Shown piece after piece: positions 251 to 12,174 of a DNA stretch of 12,426 nt. The stretch spans positions 1 to 12,426 of the forward strand of contig CANOGG010000008.1 of NCBI GenBank assembly GCA_947565485.1, read 5' to 3'. Each line of letters begins with the position of its first letter. The first letter of the stretch is position 1. The notes beneath the pieces are model-generated. The model had not been told where the DNA came from and ran no database searches. It saw only the letters and a program-made list of their open reading frames with translations. The position numbers were made by a program, and so were the translations under genes. This stretch comes from an uncultured Mycoplasma sp. (GTDB taxonomy: Bacteria; Bacillota_I; Bacilli_A; RF39; UBA660).

Positions 251-970
251 TTAAATTTTTATTTCATTAAAGAGTTTTAGAAAGTCTACTTCTTGAATTT
301 CAAAAAATGGCCCATGATTATAAGTTATCTCTTTATTCTCGACGTTGGGAATAAATCCGGCTTTAAAAGTTATTCTAATGTTGCCGCTGGCGATAAGCTT
401 TATTATTTCATCGGGAGTTTTTAATTTATAGAATGAGATATCATAATATTTGTAGTATTCAGTTCGACCCTCGAGTTTAGTCCACGTTTTTAAGAGAACT
501 ATATACTCGTATTTATTTTTGAGATTTTTGATTACTTGATTAAAGGGCCAGAAAACACTTTTTTCAACAGCATTGAAGCTTTTGTCACTTACTTTCAAAT
601 AAATTTTTCTTTCTTCATAACCCAGTTCTAATTTGAATATCTTACTTCCAACAAAAGTAGAACAATTGGCTTGGATGGAACTATGAAGAACTTTCGTCTT
701 GCTTTCAATAGTTGGTAGGTAGCCATAGTTTTTGAGAAGTCTTAAGGAATCATCTTTTTCATTGGGTGAGGCTTTAAAAAGACGGATATAATTACTGGTG
801 TAGTCTTTTTTGCGGCGGATTAAGATTTTAGATGAATTTTTAGGTAAAGTAATTAATTTTTTGAAAGTATATTCAATACTGTCAGGTCCCCTTCCCGCAT
901 TTTTTAGATAGCCCATTTCTTTAACTCGTAAAAATTCTTGCTTTATTTTTTCTAATTCTTCGTTTTTCAC
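251..970 (-). CDS. MvaI/BcnI-fold restriction endonuclease homologue, catalytic residues apparently lost
   Basis: The 239-residue protein matches the MvaI/BcnI restriction endonuclease family (MvaI itself is about 249 residues) over its full length, judged by aligning from memory. Shared stretches are the N-terminal 'TF.+L' (35-39), 'RLF+ASP' (63-69), 'LL+NYGY' (78-84), 'KSVFWPF' (137-143), 'EYYKYYD' (171-177), 'I..GNIRI..+.G' (193-205) and the C-terminal NHG..F (218-223). Active MvaI-type enzymes cut CCNGG-type sites with a D...ExK centre (D50, E55, K57 in MvaI). Here those positions read Asn45, Leu50 and Arg52, so cleavage is not expected. The protein may keep DNA binding or be a decaying remnant. 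No methyltransferase gene is in the window. An XRE-type gene converges on it from the left, a layout reminiscent of restriction-modification loci. The start is GTG at 968-970, with AGAAAGG ten bases upstream and an extended -10 behind it. Family confidence is good; loss of activity is inferred. Confidence 0.75.
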   Translation of the reverse strand: MKNEELEKIKQEFLRVKEMGYLKNAGRGPDSIEYTFKKLITLPKNSSKILIRRKKDYTSNYIRLFKASPNEKDDSLRLLKNYGYLPTIESKTKVLHSSIQANCSTFVGSKIFKLELGYEERKIYLKVSDKSFNAVEKSVFWPFNQVIKNLKNKYEYIVLLKTWTKLEGRTEYYKYYDISFYKLKTPDEIIKLIASGNIRITFKAGFIPNVENKEITYNHGPFFEIQEVDFLKLFNEIKI

Positions 971-1118: not shown

Positions 1119-1166
1119 AAAAAAAGAAAGATTAATGACTCATAAGAGTAGCACTTACTTTCTTTT
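1119..1166 (-). terminator. Terminator of the pilin-like gene
   Basis: On the minus strand AAAAGAAAG (1158-1166) pairs with CTTTCTTTT (1122-1130), and a small ACTC/GAGT hairpin sits inside. T residues continue to 1119. The TAA stop at 1132-1134 lies in the internal loop. The long AT-rich internal loop makes this only moderately certain. The stretch 1020-1118 holds no other clear element. Confidence 0.4.
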
Positions 1167-1512
1167 CATCTTCTTTATATTCAAGTTTTATCTTGGCATC
1201 GTTATAATTTTTCTTCGAGTCGCTGGGGTCAGTGATGAGACCATCACTATTACCAATTAGATAATTTTTTTCAATTAAATCATTCACGGTAATAAAAGCA
1301 GTTTTAGATTCATTAAATAAGTTTAGATTATCCATCGCATAGTCCTCGGCTTGAAGTTCAATTAAGTTTTCAATTTCGGTGACGGAGGATGAACTATCAA
1401 TTGCAAAAGCGTATGATGTTTTATTAATAGTGATAAAAGCGACTATTCCTAAAAGCACCACGATAATCATTAATTCCATTTTTGTATAACCTAAATTATT
1501 TAACTTCCTCAT
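1132..1512 (-). CDS. Type IV pilin-like (pseudopilin) protein with class III leader
   Basis: A 126-residue protein beginning MRKLNNLG followed by YTKMEL and a hydrophobic helix (MIIVVLLGIVAFITI). This is the prepilin signature: a short basic leader, Gly at -1, an aromatic residue at +1 and Glu at +5, then the N-terminal transmembrane/assembly helix. A prepilin peptidase would cut after the Gly. The rest is acidic and soluble, with a region rich in Leu-Ile-Glu-Asn and an NSDGLITDPSDSKK segment resembling a pilin loop; no cysteine pair is present. In Gram-positive bacteria such proteins belong to competence (ComG) pili or other type IV filaments, but no pilus ATPase, peptidase or further pilin gene is nearby. 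The ATG at 1510-1512 is chosen over an in-frame GTG nine bases upstream because that GTG lies inside the AAGGTGG ribosome site. It has its own extended -10 promoter. Pilin-like call firm; role unknown. Confidence 0.75.
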   Translation of the reverse strand: MRKLNNLGYTKMELMIIVVLLGIVAFITINKTSYAFAIDSSSSVTEIENLIELQAEDYAMDNLNLFNESKTAFITVNDLIEKNYLIGNSDGLITDPSDSKKNYNDAKIKLEYKEDEKKVSATLMSH

Positions 1513-1516
1513 TTTA

Positions 1517-1523
1517 ACCACCT
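1517..1523 (-). promoter_or_regulatory. Ribosome binding site deciding the pilin start
   Basis: AAGGTGG lies 4 bases before ATG 1510-1512. It overlaps the alternative GTG (1519-1521), which rules that codon out. Confidence 0.65.
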
Positions 1524-5366: not shown

Positions 5367-5422
5367 ACATATGTTTAGTTTCTTTAAAAATATTTTTTGT
5401 TAAGCATTTCGTATAGCAATTT

Positions 5423-5447
5423 AAAAAAGCTTGTTTTAAGCTTTTTT
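5423..5447 (-). terminator. Terminator of ileS
   Basis: A perfect 10-bp stem, AAAAAAGCTT with AAGCTTTTTT, around a 5-base loop. The TAA stop of ileS (5436-5438) lies in it. The symmetry could let it act in both directions. Confidence 0.75.
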
Positions 5448-8400
5448 AGTGGTAATGCCAGCATTGTGACCATTAAGTTCCATGGTGCAATCAAGGCTTT
5501 CATCATAGATAATTTCAGTCGCTAAGATTTCGCCCGCGATAAAGTCATGGAACTTGGTTAGAGCTTCTTTTAAGAGTTCGTCACCACTATAAGTAACAAT
5601 GATGCGGTCACTGACATTATAATCTTCGTTTTTACGGATATTTTGAACTTTGGAAATAAATTCACGAGCTAAGCCTTCAAGTATTAAGTCTGGGGTACGA
5701 TTAGTATTTAAAATAACAAAGAGATTATTTTCCATACTAACATCGTAACCATCTTTGGCCTGAATGCGAATATCGACATAAGATAAGCCAATGTTATAAG
5801 TGACATCATCAATTACAAGGGCAATTTCTTCATTATTATTTAGTTTAGTGATATCGGTGTCATTTAAATTAGATAAAGCATTAGCAAATTCTTTAATATT
5901 TGAGCCAAAGATAGGACCAGCTACTTTATAGTTAGGTTTGATATAGAAACTCATATATTTGCTAAGGTCACTTGTAAAGATGACATCTTTCACGTTTAAC
6001 TCTTCCATGATTAGGTCTTTAAGGTTGCCAATTAAGTTTTCAAGACGGCCATCAAGGAGACATTCACTTAGAGGTTCACGAACCTTTATTTTGACACTTT
6101 CTCGGACATTGCGGCCAATACTGATAAGGGTACGAACCGTATCCATTTTCTCTTCTAAGTTGATATCGATAAATTCTTCATGATATTTAGGGAAGTATGA
6201 GAGATGGACTGATTCTTCACCAGTTAAGTTTTGGTATAACTCTTCGCTTAAGTAAGGAGTGATGGGAGCAATCATTTTAGATAAGCCGACTAGAACTTCG
6301 TAAGTGGTTATATAAACTGATTTTTTAGAGTTATCAAGAGTACTACCCCAGAAACGATTACGATTTCTTCTAATGTACCAGTTCGATAAGTCTTCAGAGA
6401 CAAAATTGGTTAGGGCGCGAACAACTTTATTTAAGTCATATTCATCGAAACTTTCGGTAACATATTTTAGGAGATTGTGATATTTAGAGATGAGCCATTT
6501 GTCAATTTCTTCACGGTCATTATAGGTTATTTCACAATCTTTGATATCGATGTTATCAGTGTTCGCATAAAGAGCAAAGAAATTGTAAGTATTACGGAGA
6601 GGATTGAAGAATTTAGAGTACACTTCTTTTAAGCCATCTTCATCAAATTTAATGGGGGTCCAAACAGGACTGATGTATGGGAGATAAAACCGGATAGTAT
6701 CAGCGCCGTAACGTTCCATTAAGCTAAATGGTTCGACAGTATTCCCTTTACTCTTGTGCATTTTCTTGCCATATTTATCAAGTAAAAGTTCGTTTACTAA
6801 GACGTTTTTATAAGGGCTTACGCCTTTCACAAAAGTACTGATGACTAAGAGAGAGTAGAACCAGCCTCTTGTTTGGTCGATTCCCTCACAGATGAAGTCA
6901 GCAGGAAATTGGTCTTCGAAGATTTCCATATTTTCGAAGGGATAATGGTATTGGGCAAATGGCATCGCGCCACTATCAAACCAGCAGTCAATGACCTCAG
7001 GAGTACGACTCATAGTTTTGCCACACTTAGGACAAGTAAGGTGGATATCATCGACAAAAGGACGATGGAGTTCAATTGTTTCGGCGATATCTTCGATAGC
7101 TTTATCGATTAGTTCTTGGCGAGAACCAATCATATCTTGGTAGCCACATTCACAGCGCCATAAAGGAAGTGGTGTCCCCCAATAGCGATTACGAGAGATA
7201 GCCCAGTCATTTAGGTTTTCGAGCCAGTTACCAAATCTTTTTTCGCCGACAAAGCTTGGATACCAGTTAACCTTGTTATTATTTTCGATTATTTTATCTT
7301 TGATTTTAGTAATTTCTAGGTAGTAACTTGGTTTACTATAATAGAGTAAAGGAGTGTTACAACGCCAGCAGTGAGGATAGTTATGTTTCATATGTATTTT
7401 TTTGAATAGTTTATCATTCTCTTTGAGATATTTGATGACTTCTTTATCAGCTGCAAAAACATTTTGACCTTGCCAGAGACCATAAGTATAACAGCCATCT
7501 TCGCCGACAGGATTTAGGAAAGGCAAGCCATATTTTTTGCCTACTTCGTAGTCATCAGCACCAAAGGCCGGAGCTAGGTGGACAATACCAGTACCACTAT
7601 CCATAGTGACATAATCAGCACAGGTGACATAGAAAGCTTTTTTGGCAACAGAGAGACTTGGTATTAGTTGCTCGTAACCGATATTTTCTAAGTCAGAACC
7701 TTGGAATGTTTCTAAAGTGGTATATTCATCGCCTAAGACAGAATTCGCTAATTTGCTTGCGACATAAAATTTGTAACCATTACTCTCAGCTAGGATATAT
7801 TCTTCTTTGGGATTCACACAAAGAGCGACATTGCTAATCAAAGTCCAAGGAGTAGTTGTCCAAACGAGGAAGTATTCGTCTTTATCGACTCTTTTAAAAG
7901 GAACAATAACGGTGTCAACATCAATTTCTTTATAACCTTGTTGGACTTCGTGACTCGCAAGCCCTGTGCCACATCTGGTACAGAAAGGAAGGATTTTATG
8001 ACCTTCATAAAAGAGATTTTCGTCAAAGAATTTTTTTAATATCCACCACTCAGTTTCGATATAATCGTTATCATAGGTGATGTAACGATTTTCGAGGTCG
8101 ATAAATTGACCCATGTTCTTAGTAAGTTTCGCGAAGGCACTCTCATTTTCCCAAACTGTTTCTCGACATTTTTGATTAAATTCTTTGATACCATATTTTT
8201 CAATATCACCTTTGCCATTAAAGCCGAGTTTTTTTTCAACTTGGACTTCGACAGGTAGGCCATGGGTATCCCAACCTATTTTACGGATGACTTTTTTACC
8301 TTGCATCGTTTGATATTTACAGATGGTATCTTTTAAGAATTTAGCGACCATATGATGGAGACCAGGTAAGCCATTAGCAGTTGCAGGGCCATCGTAAAAG

Positions 8401-8528
8401 ACATAATTTTCGTTCTTGGCACGAGTAGAAATAGATTTTCCTAAAATATCTATTTTATCCCAATATTCACGAAATGTACTTTCAACCAAACTTGTTTCCC
8501 TATTGTCTAAACTTTTAAAATTTTTCAT
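5436..8528 (-). CDS. ileS: Isoleucyl-tRNA synthetase, type 2, with GxHH signature
   Basis: A full-length 1030-residue IleRS that charges tRNA-Ile with isoleucine in the cytoplasm. The catalytic core has IGWDTHGLPVE (84-94), a CxC...CxxC knuckle (459-502), EVIDCWFDSGAMPFAQ (511-526) and DQTRGWFYSL (551-560). The CP1 editing domain shows VWTTTPWTL (222-230) and GTGIVHLAPAFGADDYE (312-328). The anticodon-binding helices follow (VSEDLSNWYIRRNRNRFW) with a type-2 C-terminal domain lacking the zinc finger of type-1 enzymes. Two oddities: the HIGH-equivalent reads GLHH (56-59), first and third residues swapped relative to HxGH, and KMSKS reads KMHKS (589-593). Start is ATG 8526-8528, with GGAAGG upstream. 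An earlier ATG at 8595-8597 is rejected because it lies within the T-box terminator. A T-box leader with an AUC specifier precedes it and a terminator overlaps its stop. Confidence 0.95.
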   Translation of the reverse strand: MKNFKSLDNRETSLVESTFREYWDKIDILGKSISTRAKNENYVFYDGPATANGLPGLHHMVAKFLKDTICKYQTMQGKKVIRKIGWDTHGLPVEVQVEKKLGFNGKGDIEKYGIKEFNQKCRETVWENESAFAKLTKNMGQFIDLENRYITYDNDYIETEWWILKKFFDENLFYEGHKILPFCTRCGTGLASHEVQQGYKEIDVDTVIVPFKRVDKDEYFLVWTTTPWTLISNVALCVNPKEEYILAESNGYKFYVASKLANSVLGDEYTTLETFQGSDLENIGYEQLIPSLSVAKKAFYVTCADYVTMDSGTGIVHLAPAFGADDYEVGKKYGLPFLNPVGEDGCYTYGLWQGQNVFAADKEVIKYLKENDKLFKKIHMKHNYPHCWRCNTPLLYYSKPSYYLEITKIKDKIIENNNKVNWYPSFVGEKRFGNWLENLNDWAISRNRYWGTPLPLWRCECGYQDMIGSRQELIDKAIEDIAETIELHRPFVDDIHLTCPKCGKTMSRTPEVIDCWFDSGAMPFAQYHYPFENMEIFEDQFPADFICEGIDQTRGWFYSLLVISTFVKGVSPYKNVLVNELLLDKYGKKMHKSKGNTVEPFSLMERYGADTIRFYLPYISPVWTPIKFDEDGLKEVYSKFFNPLRNTYNFFALYANTDNIDIKDCEITYNDREEIDKWLISKYHNLLKYVTESFDEYDLNKVVRALTNFVSEDLSNWYIRRNRNRFWGSTLDNSKKSVYITTYEVLVGLSKMIAPITPYLSEELYQNLTGEESVHLSYFPKYHEEFIDINLEEKMDTVRTLISIGRNVRESVKIKVREPLSECLLDGRLENLIGNLKDLIMEELNVKDVIFTSDLSKYMSFYIKPNYKVAGPIFGSNIKEFANALSNLNDTDITKLNNNEEIALVIDDVTYNIGLSYVDIRIQAKDGYDVSMENNLFVILNTNRTPDLILEGLAREFISKVQNIRKNEDYNVSDRIIVTYSGDELLKEALTKFHDFIAGEILATEIIYDESLDCTMELNGHNAGITTKKA

Positions 8529-8556: not shown

Positions 8557-8610
8557 AAAAAAAGGTAATACCAAAGGGTGCTTAGTTGGAAAAGCACGGT
8601 ACCACCTTTT
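8557..8610 (-). terminator. T-box attenuator hairpin
   Basis: Minus strand: AAAAGGT pairs with ACCTTTT, GTACC with GGTAT (one G-U pair), and TGCTT with AAGCA, around a TTCCAACT loop. U residues follow (8557-8563). It contains the T-box core, so pairing of that core with uncharged tRNA excludes this hairpin. Confidence 0.85.
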
Positions 8611-8761
8611 ATTTTTTACTTATGACTTTTAACGCAAGTTAGACGTAATATCTTAATTAATTTTTCAGATATTATACTCCCAAGTGATTCTTTAAAAGAT
8701 AATTTACTAATTTTCACCATTCATTAGCTCTCTATAAAAATTTAATCTTTTAAACGGCTTG
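8557..8761 (-). promoter_or_regulatory. T-box riboswitch (tRNA-Ile, AUC specifier) of ileS
   Basis: The leader senses uncharged tRNA-Ile and lets transcription into ileS proceed only when isoleucyl-tRNA is short. Stem I runs from CAAG (8758-8761) to CTTG (8681-8684). Its upper helix is the exact 10-bp pair TTTAAAAGAT/ATCTTTTAAA, and it carries AGAGAGCTAATGAATGGTG, the GA-motif/distal-loop consensus of stem I. The specifier loop reads GAATCA with ATC at 8686-8688, an isoleucine codon. The T-box core AAGGTGGTACCG (8597-8608) contains UGGU, complementary to the ACCA end of a tRNA with an A discriminator, as expected for tRNA-Ile. The terminator is at 8557-8610. All signature parts are in the right order, so confidence is high. 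Confidence 0.93.
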
Positions 8762-8764
8762 TTC

Positions 8765-8770
8765 ATTGTA
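8765..8770 (-). promoter_or_regulatory. Possible -10 of the ileS leader
   Basis: TACAAT just upstream of stem I. There is no TGn extension and no good -35 at 17 bases, and the start point would fall at the base of stem I. Read-through from the upstream gene, which has no visible terminator, is an alternative. Confidence 0.3.
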
Positions 8771-8775
8771 TTTAA

Positions 8776-11700
8776 TTAGCGTCTTATACTACTAATGTCA
8801 CTTGTTAAGCCTGAGCATAAAATTAGAGTTGTGATACTTTCAATTTCTTGAGAAATTTGAGCTTTTTCTTCAGCATCAGTAGTAGTTTCGAGGAGAGATT
8901 TTAATTCTCTTCGACGACGATATAATAGTTGATTTTTTTCTTCTACTAACATATTTGGGTCAGCAGTTAAGCTTTCGTAGATATTATTTTTAGAAATATT
9001 TGCTGTTTCAATTGGTTCAACAGATGATGATTGGGCAATAAAAGCATCAATCGTTTGACGAAGGGCGTTAACGCGTTCAGCGACACTTTCTTCATTAATA
9101 GCTATAGTATAATTAATATCTTGTTTAGTGTTGTTTTCAACAGGTGCTTTACTTGGAAGAGCTTCTTTCTTTGGTTCTAAGCGAAGAGCGCCAGCGCCTA
9201 AGGCTTTACGAGTATTATCAACTCTCTTGCCCTCTTCTTTCTTATGGAAGAGACTCTTAATTTTGTTAAGACCATTTTTTAGAACTTTGAGGAAATTTTC
9301 TTTCCACCAAGTTAATTTTTCTGGTAATCTTCTTTTAACAACCTTTTCTCTTGGAGCTGGTTTAGCTTCTTCTTGTTTATTCTTGGCAAGAGCAATATTT
9401 CTTAATTCATTAGCAGTGATTAGATAATTGGTATAATCGGCTTCGTTAACAACGATATTATTGCCAATACTTTTTAAGTTATGTGGTTCTTTAACAGCAT
9501 CTGTTAAGATATCAAGTTGTTGTTTTAAGAGTTCGTATTCTTTAATATCTCTTTTTAAGATATGTTTGCTATCAGATGTTTGTCTGATTGGTTCATCACG
9601 ATGCGCAGGAACGTTTCCAATTATAGCACTAAGTTTTTTATTAATTTCAGCTATTTTGGCATTATTATTGTTTGTTGGTTCGACGGCTTCGTTGCTAACT
9701 GTATGTCTTGGACTTGTAACATCTTGTTTTACAGGTTCACTTTCGTGTTTTACTGTTGGTTCTTCAGCAACAACTTTATCAGGTGCCAATCTTTTAGGAG
9801 CACTAGAAGTACTACTTGTTTTAGGACTAGCAGTTCTTTCATATTGCGCATTTAGAAGAGCATTTGCTTCATTGATAAGTTTTTGTAACTCGTCAGTTTC
9901 GCCATTACTTTCAGGTGATGTTAAGATACTTTGGTAACGAGCTTCGATTTTAGCTTTACTAGCAGATAGTTTTTCTTGATAAGCTTTAAGTTCTTCAGCG
10001 CTTAAATGTTTTGGCTCCGTAGTATCTGTTGTAAGTTCTTTAGTAGCATCTAGATAATGAGGACCATCACCGATTTTTTTAGGAATATCAGATGTAAAGT
10101 CAACTTTAGATTCTACTAAGTCACGAACTTCTTTGATTAAAGTATCTAACTCTTGCATTTCTTGTTCATGTTTTTCTGGATTTAATAAGATATATTGACA
10201 TTTCTCTTGAATTTTTTTGTTTAATTCAGGAGTAGTTACGTCATAAGCAGCGGAAATGTTATGATTTAGTAAGATTTTGCGAAGAGTTACTAAATCAAGA
10301 TTAACATTCATATTTTGATTTTGACCTAGTTCGATAAGACCTAACAAGATGTTCATGTATTTATCTTTATCAGAAGTAGCAACGTAAATATCACGGGCAA
10401 CACTTACGATATCATTAGTTTTTCTAGCATCAGATAAGATAATACCTAGAGTACCCATTAAAATGAATTCTCTTTCATCGGTTTCTAAAACTTTATAATC
10501 ACCTATTGTTTTAACTTTCTCTTCAGGAGCATTTAGAGCTCTACTTGAAAGTTCTCTAATGCGGTTCATAACATAGGTTATTTCTTTTTCATTTAAGTTA
10601 GGATTAATAATAGCATCTTTGGTATCATTCTTAGAATTATTTTGAAAGAATTTAATACTACTTACAAGATTTTTGAATTTTTCAGTACTATTAGGACTAA
10701 CGTTAGCTAATTCTAAGACATTTTGTAAGTTATCTTTTTCGCCATCTAATAAAGAGATAAGTTCGATAACATGGTTAGCTTCAGCAAGGTCACGTTCACT
10801 AACAGTCCATGACTTAGTACCAAATAAAGCGGTTTGTTTTAGACTAGCTTTATCTTTTTTAGATGCTAATTCATTCATATAAGCTAATAATTGTTTAATT
10901 AGTTCTTGATTTTGAGCGATTAGAACAACACTACTATCTTCTTTTTTCTTTTTAGGAGTTGTAGTTCTCTTAGCACGTGGTTTTGTTGTTCTCTTAGTTG
11001 GTTCCTTGCTTTCAGTTTTTTTCGTTGTTCTTCTGGTTGGAGTTTTAGTAACAGAAGCTGAACCATTAAATAATTTAGTGTTTGCCATTAGTTCTTCTAA
11101 GGCTTTCTTATCATCAATGGTAGCAACGTAAGCAATGTCATTTACAAGGTAGCTACCTTTTTTATTTTCTACTTTATTTAGAATATCTAAAATATTAAGT
11201 AAATTTACATATTCGTCATAATCATCATTAAGGACACGTTCACCATTTGGTGCTTTAGTTGATGCTTTACGTGCTTTTTTACGTCTATCAACAATAGCTT
11301 GTAATTCATTATTTACTTTAGTTATAATATTAGTATTTGGTTTTTCGTTAGTTTGGTTGTTAAAGATGCTGATTTTATTAAGTAAGTTTGTAACTGTTTC
11401 AATATCATTATTATTTAAGCAAACAAGACCATTAAGAGATGTAATTTCACTATTTGGGTCTAATTTTTCACGGTAGCTTAAAAGCTCAAGCAAAGTGTTA
11501 TATTCTTCACTTTTAGAATCAAGAGTTTTTTCGCCATTTGGCATAAGCATTAATTGACCATCGTCATCAACGTTGATTTGCTTTGACTCAATATTTTTAA
11601 GTTGGTCATTAATTAGAGTATAGAAATCATTATTTATTTCTGTTGCTAAAGTCATAATATTTCTTTTAATATTATTTATCGCATTAATATATATTTTGAT

Positions 11701-12174
11701 TTCAATATTCATTTCGTCAAATTTATGAGCCCAATCTGGGTTTTCATAAGAAGAGTTTTTAACTGCTTCAATTTGGGCGTTTAGTTTATTGTATCTAAGA
11801 TTAGAACTAGTTAGACTACGTTTGTACTCAGCTAATTTACTTATTTTAGCAGCATTATCCTTAACAATAGCAGTATACTTATCATCATTATTAGTCTTTG
11901 TAACTTGTGGTTCATTATTTTGTGTTTTTTCAGACACTAAACCAGAGATATGGTTATAAACCTCCCGATAATCAACAGGTCCCATATCTGCTAAGTTAAC
12001 ATTTTTAAGTTTGCTATAGTATAGTGCGGCAAGATGTTCAAATATGCGAGCACGACCTTTCTTTATTTTGACATCCGAGTTAGGAATAGATACAAGTTCA
12101 TTATCTAACCCAGAGTTTTGTAATTTGTTTGTTTCTTCAACCAAAATCATTAAATTATTTTCAATATCTTTCAT
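8776..12174 (-). CDS. Large cytoplasmic repeat protein with basic linker, function unknown
   Basis: An 1132-residue, mostly helical, charged protein that I do not recognise. There is no signal peptide, membrane helix or enzyme motif. Visible parts: an N-terminal region (1-80); a coiled coil (100-200); repeated modules of 83-91 residues at about 190-272, 287-370, 424-512, 530-618 and 840-930, each a helix, a polar turn often with 'NG+++L', then 'EY..LL..L.IL' and a second helix pair; a Lys/Arg/Thr/Pro linker (376-411) like histone-H1 tails; two copies of a 38-residue helical unit (652-690, 741-778); a Ser/Thr/Pro/Glu-rich linker (779-838); an amphipathic basic helix (954-979); and a C-terminal coiled coil (1028-1118). 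A structural or scaffold role, perhaps linking DNA or RNA with the membrane, is speculation. Promoter TTGCTT-17-TACAAT and AGGGG support the ATG at 12172-12174. The next gene downstream is ileS behind its T-box; no terminator is seen between. Confidence 0.75.
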   Translation of the reverse strand: MKDIENNLMILVEETNKLQNSGLDNELVSIPNSDVKIKKGRARIFEHLAALYYSKLKNVNLADMGPVDYREVYNHISGLVSEKTQNNEPQVTKTNNDDKYTAIVKDNAAKISKLAEYKRSLTSSNLRYNKLNAQIEAVKNSSYENPDWAHKFDEMNIEIKIYINAINNIKRNIMTLATEINNDFYTLINDQLKNIESKQINVDDDGQLMLMPNGEKTLDSKSEEYNTLLELLSYREKLDPNSEITSLNGLVCLNNNDIETVTNLLNKISIFNNQTNEKPNTNIITKVNNELQAIVDRRKKARKASTKAPNGERVLNDDYDEYVNLLNILDILNKVENKKGSYLVNDIAYVATIDDKKALEELMANTKLFNGSASVTKTPTRRTTKKTESKEPTKRTTKPRAKRTTTPKKKKEDSSVVLIAQNQELIKQLLAYMNELASKKDKASLKQTALFGTKSWTVSERDLAEANHVIELISLLDGEKDNLQNVLELANVSPNSTEKFKNLVSSIKFFQNNSKNDTKDAIINPNLNEKEITYVMNRIRELSSRALNAPEEKVKTIGDYKVLETDEREFILMGTLGIILSDARKTNDIVSVARDIYVATSDKDKYMNILLGLIELGQNQNMNVNLDLVTLRKILLNHNISAAYDVTTPELNKKIQEKCQYILLNPEKHEQEMQELDTLIKEVRDLVESKVDFTSDIPKKIGDGPHYLDATKELTTDTTEPKHLSAEELKAYQEKLSASKAKIEARYQSILTSPESNGETDELQKLINEANALLNAQYERTASPKTSSTSSAPKRLAPDKVVAEEPTVKHESEPVKQDVTSPRHTVSNEAVEPTNNNNAKIAEINKKLSAIIGNVPAHRDEPIRQTSDSKHILKRDIKEYELLKQQLDILTDAVKEPHNLKSIGNNIVVNEADYTNYLITANELRNIALAKNKQEEAKPAPREKVVKRRLPEKLTWWKENFLKVLKNGLNKIKSLFHKKEEGKRVDNTRKALGAGALRLEPKKEALPSKAPVENNTKQDINYTIAINEESVAERVNALRQTIDAFIAQSSSVEPIETANISKNNIYESLTADPNMLVEEKNQLLYRRRRELKSLLETTTDAEEKAQISQEIESITTLILCSGLTSDISSIRR
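9238..9315 (-). other. Amphipathic basic helix in the large protein
   Basis: Residues 954-979 contain W957, F961, L962, L965, L969, I972 and F976 on one face, with many Lys on the other. This pattern fits a peripheral membrane-binding helix, though it could also pack against another protein. Confidence 0.45.
10942..11049 (-). other. Histone-H1-like basic low-complexity linker
   Basis: Codons for residues 376-411 of the large protein: about half Lys/Arg, with Thr and Pro filling the rest in 'RTTKK', 'KRTTKPR' and 'KRTTTPKKKK' blocks. It is disordered and strongly positive, the kind of segment that binds nucleic acids or other polyanions. Confidence 0.7.

Follow-up and report, generated by a model that had tools for sequence, protein, structure and literature searches.

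A type-2 isoleucyl-tRNA synthetase with two altered class I signatures, in a bacterial family whose ileS gene seems to have been exchanged repeatedly

Introduction

Isoleucyl-tRNA synthetase (IleRS) normally carries HxGH as its first class I signature and KMSKS as its second. In the stretch of DNA analysed here (12,426 nucleotides, hereafter the window), the ileS gene encodes GLHH in place of the first. This raises the question of whether the product is the cell's own housekeeping enzyme and whether it would be resistant to mupirocin.

The original prediction assigned the enzyme to a GxHH subset of type-2 IleRS (IleRS2) linked to extreme mupirocin resistance, and the main text of Brkic et al. 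(2023, PMC10485003) bears out both the subset and the link. According to that text, 86 of the 163 IleRS2 in the published tree carry G/AXHH and 77 carry HXGH. For the natural ALHH enzyme DrIleRS2 the mupirocin Ki is 6.6 mM, and its catalytic efficiency resembles that of canonical IleRS2; changing ALHH to HVGH lowered the Ki 823-fold, the reverse change raised it about 175-fold (Tt) and about 426-fold (Pm) (Table 1 of the same source), and type-1 enzymes (IleRS1) were intolerant of the motif swap. In the swapped motif the third His sits where the first, catalytic His otherwise would, causing a clash with mupirocin, and IleRS2 as the sole gene is given as one known route to resistance.

Results

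The window gene encodes a type-2 IleRS

The ileS gene (5436..8528, minus strand) starts with an ATG at 8528 and runs uninterrupted for 1030 codons, giving a protein of 1030 aa; an alternative, longer GTG frame extends into the leader. The protein scored 920.6 bits against the curated IleRS equivalog model (NCBIfam TIGR00392, cut-off 621.4). Pfam search identified tRNA-synt_1, Anticodon_1 and a C-terminal PF19302 (DUF5915) region at residues 837-1029 (5442..6020, minus strand; hmmscan, 167 bits). PF19302 marks the type-2 C-terminal region, a link supported within the host family only, where four genomes lacking it (G107, G248, G364, G392) are type-1 by their ileS. A phmmer search against solved structures was led by four chains of P. 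megaterium IleRS2 at 934-942 bits, with the GXHH mutant 8c8w at the top (941.6 bits); the best type-1 chain, 8c9f, reached 387.2 bits. The Pfam domains and the structure-sequence matches rule out a type-1 identity, and the predicted type-2 placement holds.

An AlphaFold model built from 33 sequences had a mean pLDDT of 84.3 and a pTM of 0.72. When it was searched with Foldseek, 8c9d, 8c8v, 8c8w and 8c8u came first (TM 0.79-0.80 over 1037-1042 columns, E 2.7e-95 to 6.3e-93), with a whole-chain rmsd of about 9 that reflects loose domain placement, and type-1 structures appeared only from rank 13 downward. The pLDDT fell below 50 at residues 593-597, with the blocks 581-590 and 591-600, which hold the second-signature loop, at 61 and 52; the model was also poorest at residues 62-69, in the GLHH stretch. 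It therefore supports the fold only and is silent on side-chain geometry at both signatures. P. megaterium IleRS2 (8c8u, 8c8v; mutant 8c8w) has the same fold and domains at 42% identity, but its natural signatures are HVGH and KMSKS, unlike the GLHH and KMHKS of the window enzyme.

The nearest relatives were 84% and 81% identical. Among the 80 nearest loci listed from named draft genomes (58-84% identity), samples came from rabbit (Lapin), chicken, goat, sheep and others, labels were mostly Bacilli, Bacillota or Tenericutes, and the final two were Clostridiales. The host is probably a gut-living Bacilli bacterium. Elsewhere in the window, 251-970 (minus strand) encodes an MvaI/BcnI-family restriction endonuclease (PF15515, 69 bits), for which no methyltransferase partner was found among the window proteins scanned, and 1132-1521 (minus strand) encodes a short protein that resembles a pilin, has a YTKMELMIIVVLLGIV stretch at its N-terminus and gave no family match in Pfam or NCBIfam.

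GLHH is an inherited GXHH signature

The reverse complement of 8352-8363 (minus-strand motif) is GGTCTCCATCAT, which reads Gly-Leu-His-His at residues 56-59 counted from the ATG at 8528. Its surroundings, GPATANGLPGLHH, aligned column for column with TANGLPGVHH of 8c8w and TANGLPHVGH of 8c8u. Direct reading confirmed the motif and residue numbers originally given, and the alignment agrees with the original statement that the surroundings align cleanly.

We collected 241 IleRS proteins, of which 221 were distinct (frames of at least 800 aa, exact copies merged; some loci may be the same species). Taking proteins more than 36% identical to that of the window as type-2 gave 181 rows, the window protein among them, and left 40 others. 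Across the 181 rows, residue 56 was Gly in 176, His in 2, Arg in 1 and missing in 2; residue 58 was His in 177, Gly in 2 and missing in 2; residue 59 was His in 179 and missing in 2. With this consistency the motif is neither a chance feature nor a read error. With Gly first and His third and fourth, GLHH has the GXHH pattern (Gly or Ala first), and the window enzyme is one more member of this already explained class. GXHH is nearly fixed in the major type-2 clade of the host family and also occurs in two Clostridiales outgroups. The family's GXHH descends from a GXHH ancestor, so the motif is, by itself, no evidence of current mupirocin exposure.

The second signature is altered to KMHKS

The original prediction passed over an altered second signature, a T-box before the gene and family-wide switching of IleRS type. 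The second signature is KMHKS, at residues 589-593 (6750..6764, minus strand; direct reading and alignment). It aligned to KMSKS of the solved IleRS2, retaining both Lys, the Met and the last Ser. The G/AXHH IleRS2 of D. radiodurans and S. griseus resemble the window enzyme in type and in having Gly (or Ala) first and His third, but the window enzyme has KMHKS in place of KMSKS, and the main text of PMC10485003, figures and supplements aside, does not mention KMHKS.

Loop position 3 was His in 82 of the 181 type-2 rows. The signature pairs were GxHH/KMSKS in 95 rows, GxHH/KMHKS in 80, truncated/KMHKS in 2, HxGH/KMSKS in 2, and RVHH/KISKS and GxHH/KMSKT in one each. The other 40 rows comprised 35 HxGH/KMSKS, 2 HxGT/KMSKS, one HxGH/AMSKS, one HxGH/KQSKS and one KIHH/KFSKT (L253). 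Within the host genus, L041 combines GLHH with KMSKS. A FastTree built from the 181 type-2 rows after both motifs were taken out required 7 changes for the loop His, all forced by branches with support of at least 95. KMSKS is the loop of both the Clostridiales and the HxGH outgroups, which on this tree places the origin of the loop His after that of GXHH. KMHKS was absent from the sequences compared outside the host family (L122 and L123, Clostridiales; L251 and L252, other Bacilli families; L271-L273), all of which have KMSKS. The usual codons, AGT for Ser (79 of 99 type-2 loops) and CAT for His (74 of 82), lie two base changes apart. Mapped on the rpoB tree described below, His591/Ser591 required 10 changes among the 45 type-2 genomes, against 7 on the 181-row IleRS2 tree, which fits exchange of type-2 genes too.

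We also searched for columns covarying with His591. Val95 was present in 76 of 80 His591 rows and went with His591 in 4.7 of 7 independent pairs, while Ile597 and Lys588 ran against it in 4.7 and 5.8 of 7, respectively; with median p values of 0.03-0.06 and very many columns tried, none was significant after correction.

A T-box leader precedes the gene

An Rfam search identified a T-box leader (RF00230; 97.4 bits, gathering 93) at 8571..8775 (minus strand), directly upstream of ileS. The likely specifier codon, placed by the Rfam alignment at 8686..8688 (minus strand), is AUC for isoleucine. The T-box core GGTGGTACC lies at 8598..8606 (minus strand); after it come a terminator-like hairpin (8597-8578) and then a U run. 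Transcription of ileS is probably controlled by this Ile-specific T-box, which would sense uncharged tRNA-Ile. Gram-positive relatives commonly control their housekeeping synthetase genes in this way. Among loci with at least 250 nt upstream, a crude T-box pattern preceded 118 of 178 in the type-2 set and 30 of 39 in the type-1 bin; its specifier pattern is loose and was not relied on. Just upstream of the T-box, 8776-12174 (minus strand) encodes a protein of 1132 aa with a high content of Lys, Thr and Asn, which had no Pfam or NCBIfam match.

The genome and the family mostly hold one ileS

The original prediction made the resistance of the housekeeping enzyme depend on this being the only ileS of the genome. 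In the window assembly (1.30 Mb, 219 contigs, 79.8% complete, 3.7% contamination), a single locus passed the ileS cut-off; the other class I matches were ValRS (843 aa), a 404-aa LeuRS piece and MetRS. P. megaterium, by the main text of PMC10485003, also carries IleRS1. In the host genus, 32 of 36 genomes had exactly one match at E 1e-100 and 4 had none; three of these 4 were re-examined, and one (G005) carried a small fragment of ileS where a contig ends. In the host family (193 genomes, 148 genera), 180 genomes had a match at E 1e-100, a search that would miss shorter or weaker second copies: 177 had one and 3 had two. When the 13 family genomes without a match were searched again at E 1e-20, none gave a locus over the cut-off and some gave short pieces. 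The only-ileS proviso thus stands for an assembly 80% complete and agrees with the family pattern.

None of the three two-match genomes held a type-1 and type-2 pair. G585 looks like one ileS split over two contigs, and G511 holds a third-lineage gene and a type-2 piece (contamination 4%). G501 has two overlapping type-2 pieces (L370, L390), one with KMHKS and one with KMSKS, representing two genes or contamination (2%).

A third lineage and unusual signatures

A third deep IleRS2 lineage was present in 4 of the 193 family genomes. With its member L371 as query, four family genomes matched at 59-100% identity (G511, G454, G482, G420), and the other matches listed lay at 31-37%. Its first signatures are GIHH (L371 in G511; L414 in G482), HVGH (L413 in G454) and KIHH (L253 in G420), and its loops are KFSKS, or KFSKT in G420. 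L253 had fallen into the type-1 bin at the 36% split and was treated apart, as its genome has PF19302 and it is 59% identical to L371. This lineage may correspond to the minor IleRS2 clade of Brkic et al.; in G420, a transposase-like frame adjoins ileS.

Several single loci also departed from the canonical signatures. L204 (G591) is a type-2 IleRS with RVHH and KISKS, Asn for Gly in TANG and Gln for His in WDTHGLP; this could reflect genuine variation, gene decay or misread sequence. The first-position Arg of L204 and Lys of L253 go beyond the Gly, or rarely Ala, of the G/AXHH set in the main text of PMC10485003. Among type-1 enzymes, L043 (G042) and L160 (G500) have Thr as the fourth signature residue (HCGT, HIGT), and L027 (G056) and L155 (G533) have AMSKS and KQSKS, with the first Lys or the Met changed. 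Across the non-canonical rows seen, the only constant residues were the two His and the two loop Lys. Two further ileS frames, G039:C1:504200-506644 and G051:C1:493191-495632, have TGA in frame 16 and 18 times, respectively, which fits a code that reads TGA as Trp.

IleRS types are interspersed across the host family

We typed 127 family genomes by one ileS each and obtained 102 major type-2, 24 type-1 and 1 third-lineage genomes; the other three third-lineage genomes come on top of these. The 24 type-1 proteins formed a single clade in a tree with 15 class relatives. Host-family type-1 enzymes (e.g. L151, L144) serve the same role as the window enzyme and in some sister species occupy the same chromosomal place behind a T-box, but they are only 28-31% identical to it, carry HxG[H/T] and are expected to be mupirocin-sensitive.

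An rpoB tree covering 68 genomes of the family (23 type-1, 45 type-2; typed ileS and an aligned rpoB piece of at least 440 residues, G420 excluded) required 15 type changes, at least 8 of them forced by strongly supported branches, and a FastTree rpoB tree of 84 rows, 10 of them genomes without a typed ileS, required 14; these counts rest on one marker (part of rpoB) and on draft genomes, where mis-binning could fake some switches. A single clade of type-1 genomes was rejected on rpoB (p-AU 1e-54). The type labels nevertheless clustered to some degree: for type-1, 9 of 500 shuffles gave a count as low. Both types were present in 4 of the 19 genera that had at least two typed genomes (genus codes as assigned by the database). 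Taken from the trees, these results suggest that ileS has been exchanged repeatedly between type-1 and GXHH type-2 in the host family.

We then compared one type-1 with one type-2 genome in each mixed genus (g34, g180, g187, g197). In g34, upstream genes that we take, reading the sequences alone, to be SepF- and DivIVA-like, as well as downstream genes, were common to both types; identity was 80% upstream, between -1596 and -332, and two downstream stretches matched at 72% and 80%. In g187, the two T-box leaders matched at 72% identity as far as the start codon; the genes themselves were of different type, and homology resumed downstream. In g180, identity was 76% across 2.5 kb upstream, to near the gene, and no downstream match was found in the stretch retrieved. 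The less clean case was g197, where an 81% identical leader lay about 1.7 kb upstream of the type-2 gene, separated by an insertion. Flanks were therefore shared on both sides in two genera, upstream only in one and with an insertion in one; since gene and shared flanks lie on one contig, mis-binning alone is no explanation for g34 and g187. An Rfam T-box above gathering was present in 6 of the 8 regions (not L401 or L406), indicating that the leader is often kept. In L407 (G593), a T-box leader at 5408-5610 (minus strand) is homologous to the ileS leader of a sister species but lies about 1.7 kb from ileS, with another frame between the two. Across family loci with at least 900 nt upstream, a DivIVA-like frame lay within 1.5 kb upstream in 37 of 97 type-2 and 12 of 21 type-1 loci. 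The many loci without it indicate that relocation also occurs and that in-place exchange is not the whole story.

Discussion

The sole ileS found in the assembly, preceded by its own T-box leader, is most likely the housekeeping isoleucyl-tRNA synthetase. Taken as one whole, a housekeeping type-2 GXHH ileS acting through the steps below is the explanation that we hold with good confidence. By analogy with the P. megaterium, T. thermophilus and D. radiodurans enzymes, His58, third in the motif, would do the catalytic work of the initial His in HxGH. Standing where HxGH has its Gly, this bulky residue would also clash with mupirocin, so that activity is kept and the inhibitor binds only at millimolar levels. 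As the enzyme belongs to the known GXHH class, a Ki in the millimolar range is a fair prediction. Homology places the Ser-to-His change of the second signature on the loop lining the channel for mupirocin's tail, and His591 may tune ATP binding or loop closure in the GXHH background. Because the main text of PMC10485003 places the tail between the signature helix and the KMSKS loop, a role of KMHKS in inhibitor exclusion or ATP binding is at most a fair guess. Its gene would have displaced an older ileS and been passed down in this lineage, and the trees suggest that such exchanges happened many times in the family. What is new relative to the main text of PMC10485003 is the double alteration together with the repeated exchange.

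A broader proposal, which we regard as evenly balanced, is that ileS is a swap locus: IleRS1, GXHH IleRS2 and rarely the third IleRS2 would substitute for each other, in many cases at the same site and downstream of a retained Ile T-box, while within the GXHH enzymes the second signature toggles repeatedly between KMSKS and KMHKS and acts with GXHH on ATP binding and inhibitor exclusion.

A serious contender, to which we give slightly under even weight, is that GXHH is an old inherited state without a present link to mupirocin, the exchanges being near-neutral or tied to growth rate or to other IleRS inhibitors. The near-fixation of GXHH in the major type-2 clade and its presence in both Clostridiales outgroups favour it, and we know of no mupirocin source in these guts. 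The main text of PMC10485003 associates IleRS1 with faster and IleRS2 with slower growers, which points the same way, but it also makes a strong cause-and-effect case from motif to Ki. Repeated switching between sensitivity extremes is, moreover, the pattern that fluctuating exposure would give, although the present data do not discriminate between the two.

It is improbable that a type-1 ileS hides in the missing fifth of the assembly and that the window gene is an extra resistance copy. Incompleteness leaves room for this, and both IleRS types occur in a small group of Bacillaceae (main text of PMC10485003), but the single locus in the assembly, the genus and family counts, the lack of a type-1 plus type-2 pair in the three doubles and the gene's own T-box all argue against it. 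Still less credible is a mobile MupA/MupB-like resistance cassette inserted in the chromosome. The staphylococcal MupA and MupB are likewise type-2 IleRS, their NCBIfam models matched at 892.7 and 862.7 bits, and plasmid MupA is 42% identical to the window enzyme; however, they are plasmid-borne and not housekeeping, both scores fall far under the curated exception cut-offs of 1900 bits, on which the cassette was rejected, none of the nine window proteins scanned was recognised as a mobility protein, and the 80 nearest listed loci sit on draft-genome contigs of mostly Bacilli, Bacillota or Tenericutes. A search of a phage collection matched 59 records, the best 10 of which comprised two at 42-46% identity and eight at 27-32%, several of the 10 resembling bacterial IleRS in contaminated records. 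Finally, a frame, assembly or sequencing error behind GLHH, conceivable for a single draft assembly, can be dismissed, as the original prediction had held for a frame error, because independent assemblies show the same motif (e.g. L044, 84% identity; L045, 81%).

Returning to the housekeeping GXHH enzyme and the exchange of its gene, one would expect essential housekeeping enzymes to evolve slowly and, for the most part, vertically. Here a core synthetase appears to have been swapped many times within one family, in some cases in place, between forms whose predicted sensitivities to a clinical antibiotic are vastly different. If the swap locus is real and the published values carry over, congeneric species would differ by up to about 7 orders of magnitude in mupirocin Ki. 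The natural series GXHH+KMSKS, GXHH+KMHKS, RVHH+KISKS, KIHH+KFSKT and HVGH+KFSKS offers a test of which signature residues class I synthetases need, and the natural species pairs would allow us to ask what selects resistant synthetases outside the clinic, and at what cost.
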